A stretch of 12,866 nucleotides of DNA from Candidatus Zixiibacteriota bacterium (GTDB lineage Bacteria; SM23-81): positions 1 through 12,866 of the forward strand of contig DAOVRJ010000043.1 in assembly GCA_030628225.1 (NCBI GenBank). Reading direction: 5' to 3'. Under the pieces are notes generated by a model. The model had not been told where the DNA came from. It did not search any database and saw nothing but the letters and a program-made list of their open reading frames with translations. The translations under genes were made by a program, and so were the position numbers. This document shows positions 4,089-11,422 of the stretch, piece by piece. Each line of letters starts with the position of its first letter. Within the stretch, counting starts at the first letter, position 1.

Positions 4089-5118
4089 TTATTCTCCCCA
4101 CTTTCCTAAGGGCCAGACCAACTGCCAGCGTTAACTGCGGGGCCACGGTTGAAAGCGCCTCTTGATTTCCATTAACCTGAATTCCCTTCAGGGGGTTGAG
4201 TTCCTCCACAGACACTTCTAATTTAGAATGAAGATGCCCCACGAGATTCACCAGACGGGAGCCACCCCCTGCCAGATACAGCTTGTGGAATCCTCCCTCA
4301 CCCACTCGATTCTCGTAATATGTGAGCGAACGGCGAATTCCGAAGACCAGCTGATTCAGAGGATCCTTGAGGATATCCGAAAGCTGGCTGGGATCGCCTT
4401 CCCGCTTGATCCTCTCCGCCTCGTCATAGGTAACATCCAATTGTTTCTGAATTTCAGCGGTCATCTGATGGCCGGAGGTGGAAATTTCTCGCGTAAAAAA
4501 TGGCCCGCCCGGACAGAATATATTCAAAACGGTGTTCCTGGCTCCCAGGTCCAGCACCACCACAACCCTGTTCTTCATCAAATCCTGTGAAGCCTGCAGA
4601 GCATTCATCACCGCCAGCGGGCTCAGGTCGATAACCGGCGGATCGATCCCAATTTTGCCAAGCAGCTCAAGATGCTCCGCCAAATGGGCCCTGGTCACAG
4701 CCGCCAGCAGAACGGTCATGCTCCCGGACGCCTTGTCCCTGCTGAGCACCTGGTAGTCCAAAATCGCCTCCTCGAGCCCAAAAGGAAGGTGCTTGTTGAC
4801 CTCCCACTTGATGGAGGATGCCAGCTCTTCATCCGTCAGCAGAGGAAATTCCACCTGCTTGATGGCCGTCCCGGAACCACTCACCGAGGTGACCACCTCA
4901 TTCTCCCGGCCAGGTTTAAGACCGGCCTGGTGGAAAACTTCCTTGGTGGCCTCGATAATCCTCTCCTGATCGACCCCGTCGGGAACAAAGTACTCCTTCT
5001 CCTCACTGGAGAGAAGCTGGTAACCCTTTTCGCCATGTGATAAGTGCACCAGTTTCACACTGTATGATCCGATATCCAATCCCACAACGGACTTGGTTCG
5101 GTGCGTGAGCATTTTCAT
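4081..5118 (-). CDS. pilM: Type IV pilus assembly actin-like protein PilM
   Basis: A 345-residue cytoplasmic actin/FtsA-fold ATPase-like protein that rings the base of the pilus machine and binds PilN. The three nucleotide-binding segments are visible: phosphate 1 (GLDIGSYSVKLVHL, from about residue 13), phosphate 2 (LDLGARNTVLNIF, about 189-201) and the adenosine motif (LAGGGSRL, about 282-289). The SIKWEVNKHLPF segment (about 102-113) is also typical of PilM. The ATG at 5118 overlaps the stop of the PilX-like gene by ATGA and has GGAGG seven bases upstream, so the two are translationally coupled. A longer reading to 5250 would lie inside the upstream gene in another frame. A second ATG two codons later is possible. 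Assignment is firm. Confidence 0.95.
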   Translation of the reverse strand: MKMLTHRTKSVVGLDIGSYSVKLVHLSHGEKGYQLLSSEEKEYFVPDGVDQERIIEATKEVFHQAGLKPGRENEVVTSVSGSGTAIKQVEFPLLTDEELASSIKWEVNKHLPFGLEEAILDYQVLSRDKASGSMTVLLAAVTRAHLAEHLELLGKIGIDPPVIDLSPLAVMNALQASQDLMKNRVVVVLDLGARNTVLNIFCPGGPFFTREISTSGHQMTAEIQKQLDVTYDEAERIKREGDPSQLSDILKDPLNQLVFGIRRSLTYYENRVGEGGFHKLYLAGGGSRLVNLVGHLHSKLEVSVEELNPLKGIQVNGNQEALSTVAPQLTLAVGLALRKVGRISV

Positions 5119-6311
5119 CCCTCTCCCTCCGGAGCTAACTCTGCCCAGTTCTTTTGCTTCAGAGATAGGGGAATGCTCCCGGGGTCTGTCTGGAAAACTC
5201 CTATACCACCATTCATGAGCAGAGTCTCGATGCTTTGGTTGATCTCCCAACCCTGCTTAAGTGGCCATGCCTCAAAGGGATCATAGCCCCGCATGTCCAC
5301 ATTATTGGCCAGGACAAATCCGTTGAGCTGCCCCCCTCCACCTGTCCAACTGGTATAACCCTTGGTCCTAAACTCATTACCGGCAAAGATGACGGCATTG
5401 AGCTCATTGGTAAATCCGGCTCCTTTCATGGTCACATTATTCCGAGCGATAAGCACCAGCCGGTCGTCTCCATCGTTTTGTCCCGAGTTCACCGTGATGT
5501 TCCCGGTGGCGATGATGGTCACGTCCACCGATTTGTTCCACCACCTATCCACGTTCTGGTTAATAACCACATCTCCATTCACAAAGATAATCTGGTCATC
5601 TCCGACGGTATGCCAATTCATACCCTGTTTTCCAAAAAACTTGTCCGTGGTATACACTGTATCGGCCATGCTCTGAAAATGGTTCCGGAACGAGGGAAGC
5701 GTCTTGAAATAATCTGGCAAGGAAACATCGGACTGGCTGGCCTCATCGTACTTGTGTGGGTCTTCTCCGTTGACATGATGGCCGTATTTAAGCCCCCCCT
5801 CGATGTACACGTCGTTAAACCGGTCAAAGAAATCTCTCCAGCTCCCGTCGTTGGCGCTTCCGTGAAAGGTAGCGTGGTGAGCCGCACCCACAGCGTAATC
5901 GAGCCCCGGGGTGAACACAACCTGAAGCTCGCGCTCCCGCCCCTGCTCAATGCCCCGCGAGGTCACCCTCACATCGTGAGCAAAATCTATCAGATCATCA
6001 CCCTGACGAACGACCTGGCCGTTGGCGTCGATCTCCACCGCCTCGACATTCATGCTCACGCTATCGGCCATGGCCTTGGACTTGGACCAGGTGTTGTCCA
6101 ATACCCAACGGGCCCTCTCCACCCCAGACTCGGCATAACAGAATGCCTGGGCTGCCTCTCTGCGCCGCTCAAAAAGGCCCGCCTCATAGCCGCCCAGGGA
6201 GAAAAATGCCAGCCCGGAGATGATGAAAGCGGCTGAGAAAATAACGACGGCCACCAGGGCTGATCCGTTCTGTCCCTTTATGTTCGATTTTAAATGTGTC
6301 AGAAAACCCAT
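5115..6311 (-). CDS. PilX-like minor pilin with beta-helix passenger domain
   Basis: A 398-residue protein with an N-terminal segment resembling PilX N-terminal domains: GQNG/SALVAVVIFSAAF at about 13-28, continuing hydrophobic to residue 40, then the conserved helix with EAAQAFCYAESGVERARW (about 52-69). The usual Glu at mature position 5 is Ala, as in many PilX-type proteins. The C-terminal half has at least five successive beta-strand rungs with a related pattern at about 239-252, 263-275, 284-297, 304-318 and 329-342, for example DVTIIATGNITVN, LVLIARNNVTMKG and LNGFVLANNVDMRG. This resembles the parallel beta-helix passengers seen in large PilX-like proteins. It is far longer than classical PilX (about 170-200 residues). 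GGGGGAGA lies about 10 bases before the ATG. It probably sits at the pilus tip or primes assembly; this role is inferred. Start and stop link it tightly to its neighbours. Confidence 0.75.
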   Translation of the reverse strand: MGFLTHLKSNIKGQNGSALVAVVIFSAAFIISGLAFFSLGGYEAGLFERRREAAQAFCYAESGVERARWVLDNTWSKSKAMADSVSMNVEAVEIDANGQVVRQGDDLIDFAHDVRVTSRGIEQGRERELQVVFTPGLDYAVGAAHHATFHGSANDGSWRDFFDRFNDVYIEGGLKYGHHVNGEDPHKYDEASQSDVSLPDYFKTLPSFRNHFQSMADTVYTTDKFFGKQGMNWHTVGDDQIIFVNGDVVINQNVDRWWNKSVDVTIIATGNITVNSGQNDGDDRLVLIARNNVTMKGAGFTNELNAVIFAGNEFRTKGYTSWTGGGGQLNGFVLANNVDMRGYDPFEAWPLKQGWEINQSIETLLMNGGIGVFQTDPGSIPLSLKQKNWAELAPEGEG

Positions 6312-7834: not shown

Positions 7835-9073
7835 TCACCTGAGGACCATCCCCAGTTTGAAAATGGGCAGGTACATGACCATAATGATGCCCCCAACCAC
7901 ACCTCCCAGGGCGATGATGACGGCCGGCTCGATGAGCGAAACGATGCCATCCACTGAGGCCTTGACCTGTTTCTCGTAGAAATCGGCCACGTGGGCGAGC
8001 ATCTGACCCATGGTGCCGGTTTCCTCTCCAGTGGATACCATCTGAATTAACAACTCCGGAAAGACTCCCGTCCCCTGCATGGCCTCGGTCAGGGTTTGGC
8101 CTTCCTCCACCCGCCGCTTGGTATCCACGATTCCCTGCTCATAGATCTTGTTATTGGCTGCCCGACGGACCACCGATAGTGCCTGGACAATGGGCATACC
8201 GCTGTGAGCCAGAACGCTCAGGGTGCGAGCCAACCTGCTCACCACCACCTTTTTGGCTATTTTGCCGATGATGGGAAGGCGAAGCTTCAGCTTGTCCCAG
8301 GCAAATCCACCCCTCTCGGTGCGAACCAATAACTTGACGCCCACGACGATCACGCCTATCAGCAGAAAAATGAACAGGATGTTCTGCCGGACGAGGGCAC
8401 TGAAGTTCATCACCATCTGGGTGGGCAGGGGAAGCTGCGCGTTAAAACCCTCGTAGATCTGAGCAAATTTGGGAATGACCTTTAAAATAAACACGACGAC
8501 AATGAGACCGATGAAGGAAAAGATAAACATGGGATAGCGGAGGGCCGATTTCACCCGCATGCGGATATCCCTCGTTGCCTCCATGTAATCGGCCAGTTGA
8601 TCCAAAATGACGTCCAATTGACCGCTCTCCTCTCCTGATTCAACCAGAGCGGTGAACAATTGATTAAAAACCCTGGGTTGCTTTCGCAGGGCCTCGGAAA
8701 AAGTGCTTCCCTGCTCCACATCCTCGGACACCTGCCTGAGAACTTCACCAAATTTCGGCTCTTGTTCGGATGCCAGGCCGCGCATGATCTTGATCAAAGG
8801 GAGACCAGCAGAGACCATGGTGGCCAACTGGCGCGTGAAGGAAACCAGAAGGTCACCCTTCACCTTTATTCCCCTTTTCCTCCACGGAAGGGCTTTTCCC
8901 GTAAAACCACTTCGCCGCTCCCCGGACCGTCCACTCACCGCGTCTGTGATCTGGATAACGAAAAGGCCATCCCGGTGCATTTCTTCTACCAGCTCTCCCT
9001 TTTCGGAAGCCGTTCGTTTCAAGTTGAGTTTTCGGCCTTCTTTATCCTTAACTGTGACAAGAAACTCTGCCAC
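7835..9073 (-). CDS. pilC: Type IV pilus inner-membrane platform protein PilC
   Basis: A 412-residue GspF/PilC-family polytopic protein that sits in the inner membrane, passes the motion of the PilB ATPase on, and extracts pilin from the membrane. Two T2SSF repeats are clear (about 78-201 and 280-402); each has the family helix pattern, for example FTRQLATMVSAGLPLIKIM and SRLARTLSVLAHSGMPIVQ. Membrane helices lie at about 181-200, 231-250 and 381-402, and the chain ends with the usual MYLPIFKLG. The GTG at 9073 gives the typical opening MAEFLVTVKDKEGRKL and has GGGGGA before it. A TTG at 9115 would add 14 atypical residues. A sigma-54 promoter lies about 90 bases upstream. It is separated from pilB by 244 bases and probably begins the pilC-pilA-minor pilin-pilMNOPQ operon. 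Confidence 0.95.
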   Translation of the reverse strand: MAEFLVTVKDKEGRKLNLKRTASEKGELVEEMHRDGLFVIQITDAVSGRSGERRSGFTGKALPWRKRGIKVKGDLLVSFTRQLATMVSAGLPLIKIMRGLASEQEPKFGEVLRQVSEDVEQGSTFSEALRKQPRVFNQLFTALVESGEESGQLDVILDQLADYMEATRDIRMRVKSALRYPMFIFSFIGLIVVVFILKVIPKFAQIYEGFNAQLPLPTQMVMNFSALVRQNILFIFLLIGVIVVGVKLLVRTERGGFAWDKLKLRLPIIGKIAKKVVVSRLARTLSVLAHSGMPIVQALSVVRRAANNKIYEQGIVDTKRRVEEGQTLTEAMQGTGVFPELLIQMVSTGEETGTMGQMLAHVADFYEKQVKASVDGIVSLIEPAVIIALGGVVGGIIMVMYLPIFKLGMVLR

Positions 9074-9163: not shown

Positions 9164-9179
9164 GCAAAATATATGCCAA
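9164..9179 (-). promoter_or_regulatory. Sigma-54 (RpoN) promoter of the pilC-pilA operon
   Basis: Minus strand TTGGCATATATTTTGC. It has the invariant GG (9176-9177) and GC (9164-9165) separated by exactly 10 bases and matches the TGGCAC-N5-TTGC consensus except for one base. The start site would be near 9152, leaving a leader of about 79 bases before pilC. An almost identical element precedes pilB. Confidence 0.85.
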
Positions 9180-9246: not shown

Positions 9247-9260
9247 ATTTTCTTCAAGAA
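9247..9260 (-). promoter_or_regulatory. Putative enhancer-binding site upstream of the pilC promoter
   Basis: Minus strand TTCTTGAAGAAAAT, about -95 to -108 from the predicted start. The same motif (12 of 14 bases) occurs at precisely the same distance upstream of the pilB sigma-54 promoter. Here it is part of a perfect 13-base dyad (9249-9261, TTTCTT-G-AAGAAA). The distance is usual for a sigma-54 activator such as PilR. The identity of the activator is inferred. Confidence 0.6.
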
Positions 9261-9317
9261 AGGAAATTTCAGCGGCCTGGTCTTGAGGCTATTGTATCCC
9301 TTTCAGACGAGATTTTT

Positions 9318-11033
9318 CTATTCTGTTATGTAGGCACCCATAACCTCATTTACAGTGGTCAGACCCTGCTTGACTTTTTCCAATCCAACCGACTGTAGCG
9401 TTTTCAAATTCACTCGCTCCGCTTCCTTTCGAATTTCCTCTTCGCTGGCATTCTCGAAGATCAGCTTTCTCACCGATGGTTTCATCTCCAACATCTCAAA
9501 AAGTCCTGTTCGCCCGAGAAAGCCGGTATCCTTACAGTGCATACACCCTTTTCCCCGGTAGAAGTAGATCTTTTCCCCCTCTTTCCGCTGCCATCCCAGG
9601 CTGTCCAGAAGCTCTGCGGGCGGCTCGTATTGTTCCTTACAGTGGGGACATATTCTGCGCACGAGCCTCTGGGCCAGAACCAGGTTCACTGCTGAGCCCA
9701 CCAGGAAAGGGGCAACTCCCAGGTTGATCAATCTTGTAACAGTGCTCACGGCATCGTTGGCGTGCACCGTGGAAAACACCAGGTGCCCTGTCAAAGCGCA
9801 CTTGACAGCAATATCGGCCGTTTCCCCATCTCGAATTTCGCCGACCATGATGACATCCGGATCCTGACGTAAAATGGACCTTAGGGCAGAGGCGAAAGTT
9901 AAGCCAGCCTGAGGATTCGTATAGACTTGATTGATACCCTCTATTTTGTACTCCACGGGATCCTCAACGGTCACGATGTTCTTCTCCGGCGATTTGATAT
10001 CCATCAAAGCTCCGTAGAGAGTGGAGCTTTTTCCGCTTCCCGTGGGCCCGGAGACTAAAATCATTCCGTATGGCTCCCGGATCCATCGGCGGATAGTACT
10101 TAACATATCCTCATCAAACCCCAAATGGGAAATATCTCGCCCAAATGCCTCCTTATCAAAAAGCCTCATGACCACCTTTTCGCCAAATACCGTGGGAAGA
10201 GTAGACACCCTGACGTCAACATTTTTTTGGGCGAGTTTGATGGTTAACCGGCCATCCTGAGGCACCCGTCTGTCGGCAATATCCAGATCAGAGAGGATTT
10301 TGATGCGCGTTATCAGGGGCATGTGCAGCTTTTTGGGCGGGTTCATCACCTCGTGCAGAACACCATCGATACGGAAACGGACGCAGCTCTCCTTTTCCAA
10401 CGGCTCTATGTGTATGTCGGAAGCTCTATCCTTGATGGCCTCACTCAGGATCATGTTAACCAACTTGACCACAGGAGCCTCATCCCCCTGAGCCTTGAGC
10501 TTTTCTACATCTACCTCTTCCTCCTCCCCTTCCGGCAAATAATCGACGTCCCCCAAGAGCTCTTCCAGCCCCTTAAAGGTCTTTAGCTCCTTGTAATACC
10601 GCTCGATGGCCTCCTTGATCTCCATGGATTTACCGATGAACGGCTTAACGGCGCGCCCAGACATCTTTTCCAGGGTATCTAATATTTCCAGGTCGAAGGG
10701 ATCCGACATGACCACCGTCAACTCGTTTTCATCTTTGGAAGTAGCTATTAAAACATGCTCTCTGGCCAAGTTCTCCGGAATGGCGGCCACTGCATCTGGA
10801 TCAGCATGAGTGAAAACCTCCGAGCTGGCCAGGGGTATCCCCAGTTGCTCGGCCAAAATTCTGCTCAGGTCATCTTCGCTGACAAATCCCAATTTGACGA
10901 GAACTTCACCTAGGCGTTCTTTGCTCTCCTTCTGGACCCGGAGGGCCTCCGCAACCTGCTCTTTGCTGATCAATCCCTCGGCAGTGAGAATAGAACCCAG
11001 AAGCTTTCTGGCAATCCTGTAGGCCGGTGGCAT
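9318..11033 (-). CDS. pilB: Type IV pilus extension ATPase PilB
   Basis: A 571-residue hexameric AAA-like secretion ATPase that drives pilus polymerisation through PilC. N-terminal MshEN-type domain (about 12-75) holds two tandem copies of the LG-L-G-L-L-Q motif (LLGSILTAEGLISKEQ and RLGEVLVKLGFVSEDD). The motor domain has Walker A GPTGSGKSST (329-338), Asp box VTVEDPVEY (from about 355), Walker B PDVIMVGEIRDGE (about 392-404) and His box TGHLVFSTVHAND (about 416-427). A zinc-binding tetracysteine is present (C462, C465, C497, C500). These features and the length separate it from the shorter retraction ATPase PilT, which lacks the N-domain and zinc site. I start at the ATG at 11033, with AAAGGA about 7 bases upstream; a TTG 12 codons earlier is unlikely. 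It stands alone between its own sigma-54 promoter and the pilC promoter. Confidence 0.96.
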   Translation of the reverse strand: MPPAYRIARKLLGSILTAEGLISKEQVAEALRVQKESKERLGEVLVKLGFVSEDDLSRILAEQLGIPLASSEVFTHADPDAVAAIPENLAREHVLIATSKDENELTVVMSDPFDLEILDTLEKMSGRAVKPFIGKSMEIKEAIERYYKELKTFKGLEELLGDVDYLPEGEEEEVDVEKLKAQGDEAPVVKLVNMILSEAIKDRASDIHIEPLEKESCVRFRIDGVLHEVMNPPKKLHMPLITRIKILSDLDIADRRVPQDGRLTIKLAQKNVDVRVSTLPTVFGEKVVMRLFDKEAFGRDISHLGFDEDMLSTIRRWIREPYGMILVSGPTGSGKSSTLYGALMDIKSPEKNIVTVEDPVEYKIEGINQVYTNPQAGLTFASALRSILRQDPDVIMVGEIRDGETADIAVKCALTGHLVFSTVHANDAVSTVTRLINLGVAPFLVGSAVNLVLAQRLVRRICPHCKEQYEPPAELLDSLGWQRKEGEKIYFYRGKGCMHCKDTGFLGRTGLFEMLEMKPSVRKLIFENASEEEIRKEAERVNLKTLQSVGLEKVKQGLTTVNEVMGAYITE

Positions 11034-11098
11034 TGTATATTTCCTTTCAGAAATAGCATTCCTCACCAATGTACTTTTCTGGCCAATATTCTATTCAG

Positions 11099-11114
11099 GC
11101 AAAATGTATGCCGA
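11099..11114 (-). promoter_or_regulatory. Sigma-54 (RpoN) promoter of pilB
   Basis: Minus strand TCGGCATACATTTTGC, with GG (11111-11112) and GC (11099-11100) exactly 10 bases apart. It differs from the pilC promoter at two of 16 positions. The start site would be near 11087, giving a leader of about 54 bases before the pilB ATG. Confidence 0.85.
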
Positions 11115-11164
11115 CGCAGATCTCTTCTGCAAAAACCCCTGCATCACGATAACCCTTTTAGATG

Positions 11165-11177
11165 CACTATGATAGTG
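11165..11177. promoter_or_regulatory. 13-base palindrome upstream of the pilB promoter
   Basis: CACTAT-G-ATAGTG is a perfect dyad at about -78 to -90 from the predicted pilB start, between the shared upstream motif and the sigma-54 box. It could be a binding site for a regulator specific to pilB, since no copy is seen before pilC. Confidence 0.4.
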
Positions 11178-11181
11178 TAAC

Positions 11182-11195
11182 AGTTTTTTCAAGAA
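11182..11195 (-). promoter_or_regulatory. Putative enhancer-binding site upstream of the pilB promoter
   Basis: Minus strand TTCTTGAAAAAACT, about -95 to -108 from the predicted start, the same distance as the matching motif before pilC. It overlaps the T-rich tail of the terminator at 11190-11233, so terminator and control region share bases. Confidence 0.6.
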
Positions 11196-11233
11196 CAAAC
11201 CCCGGTCAGAAAATATCTTTCTCTGATCCGGGG
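11190..11233 (-). terminator. Strong rho-independent terminator upstream of pilB
   Basis: Minus-strand RNA forms a long hairpin: CCCCGG, a bulged A, then about 8 further pairs (TCAGAGAA with TTTTCTGA, one G-U), a 5-base loop and CCGGGG, followed by TTTGTTCTTG. It would insulate pilB from transcription coming from the prenyltransferase side. The T-run is interrupted, but the stem is very stable. Confidence 0.75.
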
Positions 11234-11422
11234 CTATCTGGCAAATTGCAAAAAAAACTGCAATCTTAAACGCTCAACATATCTGTGAATTCACCTTCAT
11301 AAAGAACCGTATTTGCCGACCCTCAAAAGGTGAACAGGACCAACAGGGATCTAAATTTGGCGATGAAATAGAAGGGCAGAAGGAAGGAGATTTGAAGCTC
11401 GTGTTGAGAATCGATTGGGGGG
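11234..11422. other. Non-coding stretch between two terminators
   Basis: No convincing gene on either strand. It contains an 8-bp inverted repeat, ttcacctt (11290-11297) and aaggtgaa (11327-11334), with a 29-base spacer, and a small stem ttgca/tgcaa around an A-run (11246-11263). Lying between two terminators on the same strand, it could carry a small RNA that ends at the 11190-11233 hairpin. I see only a weak -35/-10 candidate for it. Otherwise it is spacer. Confidence 0.3.

Follow-up and report, generated by a model that had tools for sequence, protein, structure and literature searches.

Candidate activator sites at equal distance from two sigma-54 promoters in a pilus locus of a Candidatus Zixiibacteriota bacterium

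We analyzed a 12,866-nucleotide stretch of DNA (the window) from a Candidatus Zixiibacteriota bacterium. It contains, on the minus strand, a pilB-type ATPase gene (9318-11033; Pfam T2SSE and MshEN) and a pilC-type platform gene (7835-9073; Pfam T2SSF) that leads a pilus operon. Four genomes of the phylum were compared, the window's own (G000) included, and one of them (G001) belongs to the same family and to another genus. G001 has an identical gene order and its ATPase is 78% identical to that of the window. Comparison with G001 places the ATPase start at ATG 11033 (the longest open reading frame opens at TTG 11069). The pilC-type gene, whose longest open reading frame opens at TTG 9115, probably starts at GTG 9073, as judged from its ribosome site and from the GTG being conserved in G001. 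The window ATPase narrowly misses the cut-offs of the curated NCBIfam models for PilB (634.6 bits, cut-off 675.65) and GspE (621.2 bits, cut-off 630.25), whereas the ATPase of a second pilus locus (G000 contig 11) clears the PilB model with 720.7 bits. The machine encoded in the window may be something other than a classical type IVa pilus. The window also encodes a 398-amino acid prepilin-like protein (5115-6311, minus strand) with a hydrophobic N-terminus (LVAVVIFSAAFIISGLAFFSL), for which we found no match in Pfam or NCBIfam. G001 has three tandem copies of this protein (L062 4546-8387, minus strand) and two tandem pilins as well.

Both genes are preceded by a sigma-54 promoter on the minus strand. 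The pilC promoter, GGCATATATTTTGC (9164-9177), has its -24 GG at 9177-9176 and its -12 GC at 9165-9164, and the pilB promoter, GGCATACATTTTGC, is located at 11099-11112. Each shows GG-N10-GC in a TGGCAY...TTGC-like context, and the transcription starts named in an earlier note on this DNA, 9152 and 11087, agree with the positions of these elements. In G001, the pilC promoter is conserved over 18 nt without a mismatch (GGTTGGCATATATTTTGC), and the pilB ortholog carries GGCATATTTTTTGC at the corresponding place. In the pil regions read from the two remaining genomes, a strict sigma-54 pattern returned no site, and a search of the genome contigs returned distant ATPases only. A site identical to GGCATATATTTTGC is found at L177 3456-3469; it directly precedes an exopolysaccharide-export-type operon and follows an NtrC-type regulator gene at a distance of about 0.5 kb.

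Sigma-54 promoters need an activator protein to function. Upstream of the pilC promoter lies TTCTTGAAGAAAAT (9247-9260, minus strand), which from its sequence is a candidate site for an activator of the pilC operon, and a second copy, TTCTTGAAAAAACT (11182-11195, minus strand), is located upstream of the pilB promoter. We recovered both words, identical at 12 of 14 bases, at the coordinates and on the strand given in the earlier note; their consensus, TTCTTGAARAAAMT, has 14 bases, one letter fewer than the string printed there. Within the pilC word we find a palindromic core, TTCTT-G-AAGAA. The 5' base of the motif is 83 nt from the first G of the -24 GG at both promoters (9260 to 9177 and 11195 to 11112), in line with the equal distance that had been claimed. 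In each case 69 nt, not 76 nt, separate the motif from the GG. The sequences between motif and promoter are identical at just 23 of 69 positions (19 of 77 in the flanks further upstream). This spacer identity rules out a recent duplication of the two upstream regions, as the earlier note had argued.

When the two upstream regions were dinucleotide-shuffled, a match of at least 12 of 14 bases at zero offset arose in ∼5 × 10⁻⁴ of trials. Real intergenic pieces paired at random (203 pieces, from loci of both G000 and G001) gave a rate of 3.7 × 10⁻⁴, or of 1.9 × 10⁻⁴ when an exact 8-mer was required as well, all for a pair that had been picked post hoc, having been seen first. When any offset was allowed in the shuffles, p rose to ∼0.03, and most of the significance of the pair therefore stems from the equal spacing, which is what makes it noteworthy.

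The pilC site is kept in one other genus. An exact 9-mer, TTTCTTGAA, is found upstream of pilC in G001, at 84 nt from the GG in the window and at 86 nt in G001, and besides the promoter it is the sole exact word of at least 7 nt conserved upstream of pilC between the two (p ∼ 0.0035 in shuffles for an exact occurrence within 2 bp of equal distance). It is plausible, on these grounds, that the pilC word represents an activator site. Footprinting in related genomes had been proposed as a check on the motif; in G001, the one relative that has these promoters, the pilC copy is conserved and the pilB copy is not, the corresponding interval containing no TTCTTGAA.

At pilB, the upstream UbiA-family gene presumably ends at an intrinsic terminator with a strong hairpin (CCCCGGATCAGA...TCTGACCGGGG; 11200-11233, minus strand; RNA fold of the region -28 to -31 kcal/mol). 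The motif begins four bases past this hairpin, and the T-rich terminator tail (TTTGTTCTT) extends into it; the T-rich half of the motif may therefore be nothing but this tail. G001 has another, different terminator in the corresponding interval, which lacks the motif word. These observations, together with a conservation at pilC that is independent of pilB, fit a scenario that we regard as somewhat doubtful but a serious contender: the pilC word alone would be a real operator, and the pilB copy a chance resemblance made up of the T-rich terminator tail and a following A-run. The equal spacing would then be coincidental. Chance seldom produces such a match over 14 bases with no difference in offset (2-5 × 10⁻⁴), however, and a terminator tail has no need of the GAAnAAA half of the motif.

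Upstream of the terminator lies the block TTTTTTGCAATTTGCCAGAT (11236-11255, minus strand), of which TTTTTTGCA and TTTGCCA are exact in G001. Promoter and ribosome site aside, nothing else upstream of pilB is conserved as well as this block. Repeats related to this block (TTTGCACTTTGCAATTTGAAA) are dispersed in G000, many of them close to contig ends. A palindrome resembling TTTGCAATTTGCCA is found far upstream of the second-locus pilin. We rejected the TTTGCAATTTGCCA block as a shared activator palindrome, its one-mismatch matches in the genome being mostly dispersed repeat and many of them near contig ends.

A perfect 13-bp palindrome, CACTATGATAGTG (11165-11177), lies downstream of the pilB motif and upstream of the pilB promoter. 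We consider it improbable that the motif is a structural element ahead of both promoters, an A-tract bend or a nucleoid-protein site, with the activators binding elsewhere, for example at this palindrome. Such a role would suit the A/T-rich common part of the motif, the presence of a separate palindrome, and a shared word in which no consistent inverted repeat or dyad is common to the sites at the pil sigma-54 promoters. Yet the letters conserved at pilC include a specific CTTG core and thus go beyond a mere A-run, and the palindrome is seen neither at pilC nor in G001. The motif also contains TTGAA(A/G) and could be read as a sigma-70 -35 element. We find this hardly credible and have dropped it, as a sigma-70 scan identified no promoter overlapping either motif.

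Genome-wide statistics were derived from pattern searches. When both genomes were searched for TTCTTGAA located 60-95 nt upstream of GG-N9-TGC, 20 matches were obtained, most within coding frames. Outside coding DNA, a good sigma-54 consensus accompanies the match only at window pilB and pilC, at G001 pilC, and at one site on G000 contig 205. The contig-205 promoter, a non-pilus one, has an ortholog in G001 that precedes a large secreted protein; both contain a CTTGAA core, at positions that do not align, which tells against a pilus-specific shared activator. Among 30 sigma-54-like sites compared, none beyond the pil and contig-205 types has the core at 30-115 nt. Orthologous sigma-54-like promoters (GGCATGRGTTTTGC) upstream of a large secreted protein are located at L176 5994-6007 and L222 5412-5425. 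They are followed by a conserved sigma-70-like TTGACA...TATATT, and some 2 kb upstream of them the same strand encodes an enhancer-binding-type regulator. When six pil sigma-54 promoters were searched de novo, TCTTGAAAA/TTCTTGAA came first, alone or tied, among the shared 8- and 10-mers, with a p of ∼0.01 that counts orthologues as independent. With the three promoters of the window genome only, p ranged from 0.02 to 0.6 depending on word length (0.02 for 9-mers, 0.09 for 10-mers).

Both G000 and G001 contain rpoN, and they encode eight and eleven strong enhancer-binding proteins, respectively. One of these proteins per genome adjoins a histidine kinase and prepilin genes. The cluster of kinase, GAFTGA regulator, and prepilin is found on G000 contig 241 and on G001 contig 9, off the window contig, and both genomes thereby have the kinase and NtrC-type regulator next to a pilin that we took as the mark of a PilSR regulon. 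The regulator of this PilSR candidate is encoded in G000 at 1818-3182 of contig 241, on the minus strand. In G001, the cluster lies within the second type IV pilus locus, which has its own ATPase, pilT-like, and pilC-like genes; in G000 the genes of this locus are split between contigs 11 and 241. The promoter of the PilR-adjacent pilin is GGCCTATCTTTTGC in G000 and GGTGCGAATTTTGC in G001. In both genomes the second-locus pilin promoters share a conserved block, TTTTCAAGRCCTTATG, which matches the motif weakly: its CTTGAA core stands in the reverse orientation, at a distance of only 53-54 nt from the GG. The spacing rule is therefore not general.

C/G-TGTC is a hallmark of proteobacterial PilR sites. 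TGT-N11-AGA and GTCT are further hallmarks (PMC6058289). TGT-N11-AGA is absent from all six pil sigma-54 promoters, and neither it nor C/G-TGTC occurs in the upstream regions of window pilB and pilC. GTCT/AGAC is found solely in the distant flank of window pilC (>100 nt upstream of the GG) and in both second-locus pilin promoters. None of the known PilR hallmarks is present at the motif, and a site derived from the PilR or NifA consensus was discarded, having no match there. For PilR as the activator, which the earlier note had put forward, the presence of a PilSR pair in the genome speaks in favor; the missing hallmarks speak against it. PilR would still be the best candidate.

We favor an explanation that we hold to be evenly balanced between right and wrong, in which one sigma-54 enhancer-binding protein, most likely the PilSR-type regulator, would recognize both words as its operators (or operator half-sites) and switch both units together. 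Protein binding, by the same protein at both sites, its identity as PilR, and a functional pilB copy are the elements that we infer here. The protein would bind ∼95-108 bp upstream of both starts, loop to the sigma-54 polymerase at both GG-N10-GC promoters, and remodel it using ATP, so that the pilB-type ATPase gene and the pilC-led pilus operon would be turned on jointly. The likeliest activator would be the PilSR-type response regulator encoded beside the second type IV pilus locus. A shared activator site is consistent with the conserved pilC site, the two promoters, RpoN, the enhancer-binding proteins, and the top rank of the word, and is called into question by a pilB copy that is absent in the relative and overlaps a terminator. 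The pilC word is probably a genuine operator and the pilB word may be one; the chances that pilC and pilB have an activator in common appear about equal either way. With the pilB copy unconserved and the PilR hallmarks missing, the single regulon proposed in the earlier note draws mainly on the two window copies and the weak inverted match at the PilR-adjacent pilin; G001 pilB, which lacks the motif, argues against it. A wider reading, which we think unlikely, is that one PilR-type activator coordinates two separate type IV pilus-like machines in this lineage, the PilSR-adjacent pilus and the window system with its ATPase between PilB and GspE. The CTTGAA-core sites used would be tolerated in either orientation and would be unlike proteobacterial PilR sites.

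PilS-PilR and sigma-54 control pilA in Pseudomonas aeruginosa, Geobacter sulfurreducens, and Myxococcus xanthus. The window resembles these systems in having sigma-54 promoters at pilus genes, putative activator sites ∼100 bp upstream, and, elsewhere in the genome, a PilSR-type pair beside a pilin. It differs in that its promoters serve an ATPase gene and a platform-led operon, in that the PilSR pair is at another locus, and in that its motif lacks the TGT-N11-AGA and CTGTC hallmarks. Geobacter PilR regulates the adjacent pilA (PMC2725144), and pilB of P. aeruginosa has been reported to be sigma-70 dependent (PMC6058289). In Desulfovibrio vulgaris, DVU2114 is a sigma-54 response regulator of pilins and of a pilus assembly operon (PMC3333781). 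This parallels the one sigma-54 activator upstream of two separate pilus units that we propose for the window, although the DVU2114 targets reportedly resemble Tad-type pili most. RpoN2-PilRX of Xanthomonas oryzae targets pilA and pilC (PMC8657755). It is thus a case of sigma-54/PilR control of pilC in addition to the pilin gene, and differs from the window in phylum and in gene order. We know of no site sequence that RpoN2-PilRX and the window have in common. That one sigma-54 activator can serve several pilus operons is a principle already known, and as a case of sigma-54 control of pili the finding is ordinary in kind. If true, it would mean that an ATPase gene and a platform-pilin operon, and not the pilin gene alone, are co-controlled by sigma-54, and it would give an uncultured phylum an operator of pilus regulation that can be put to the test.
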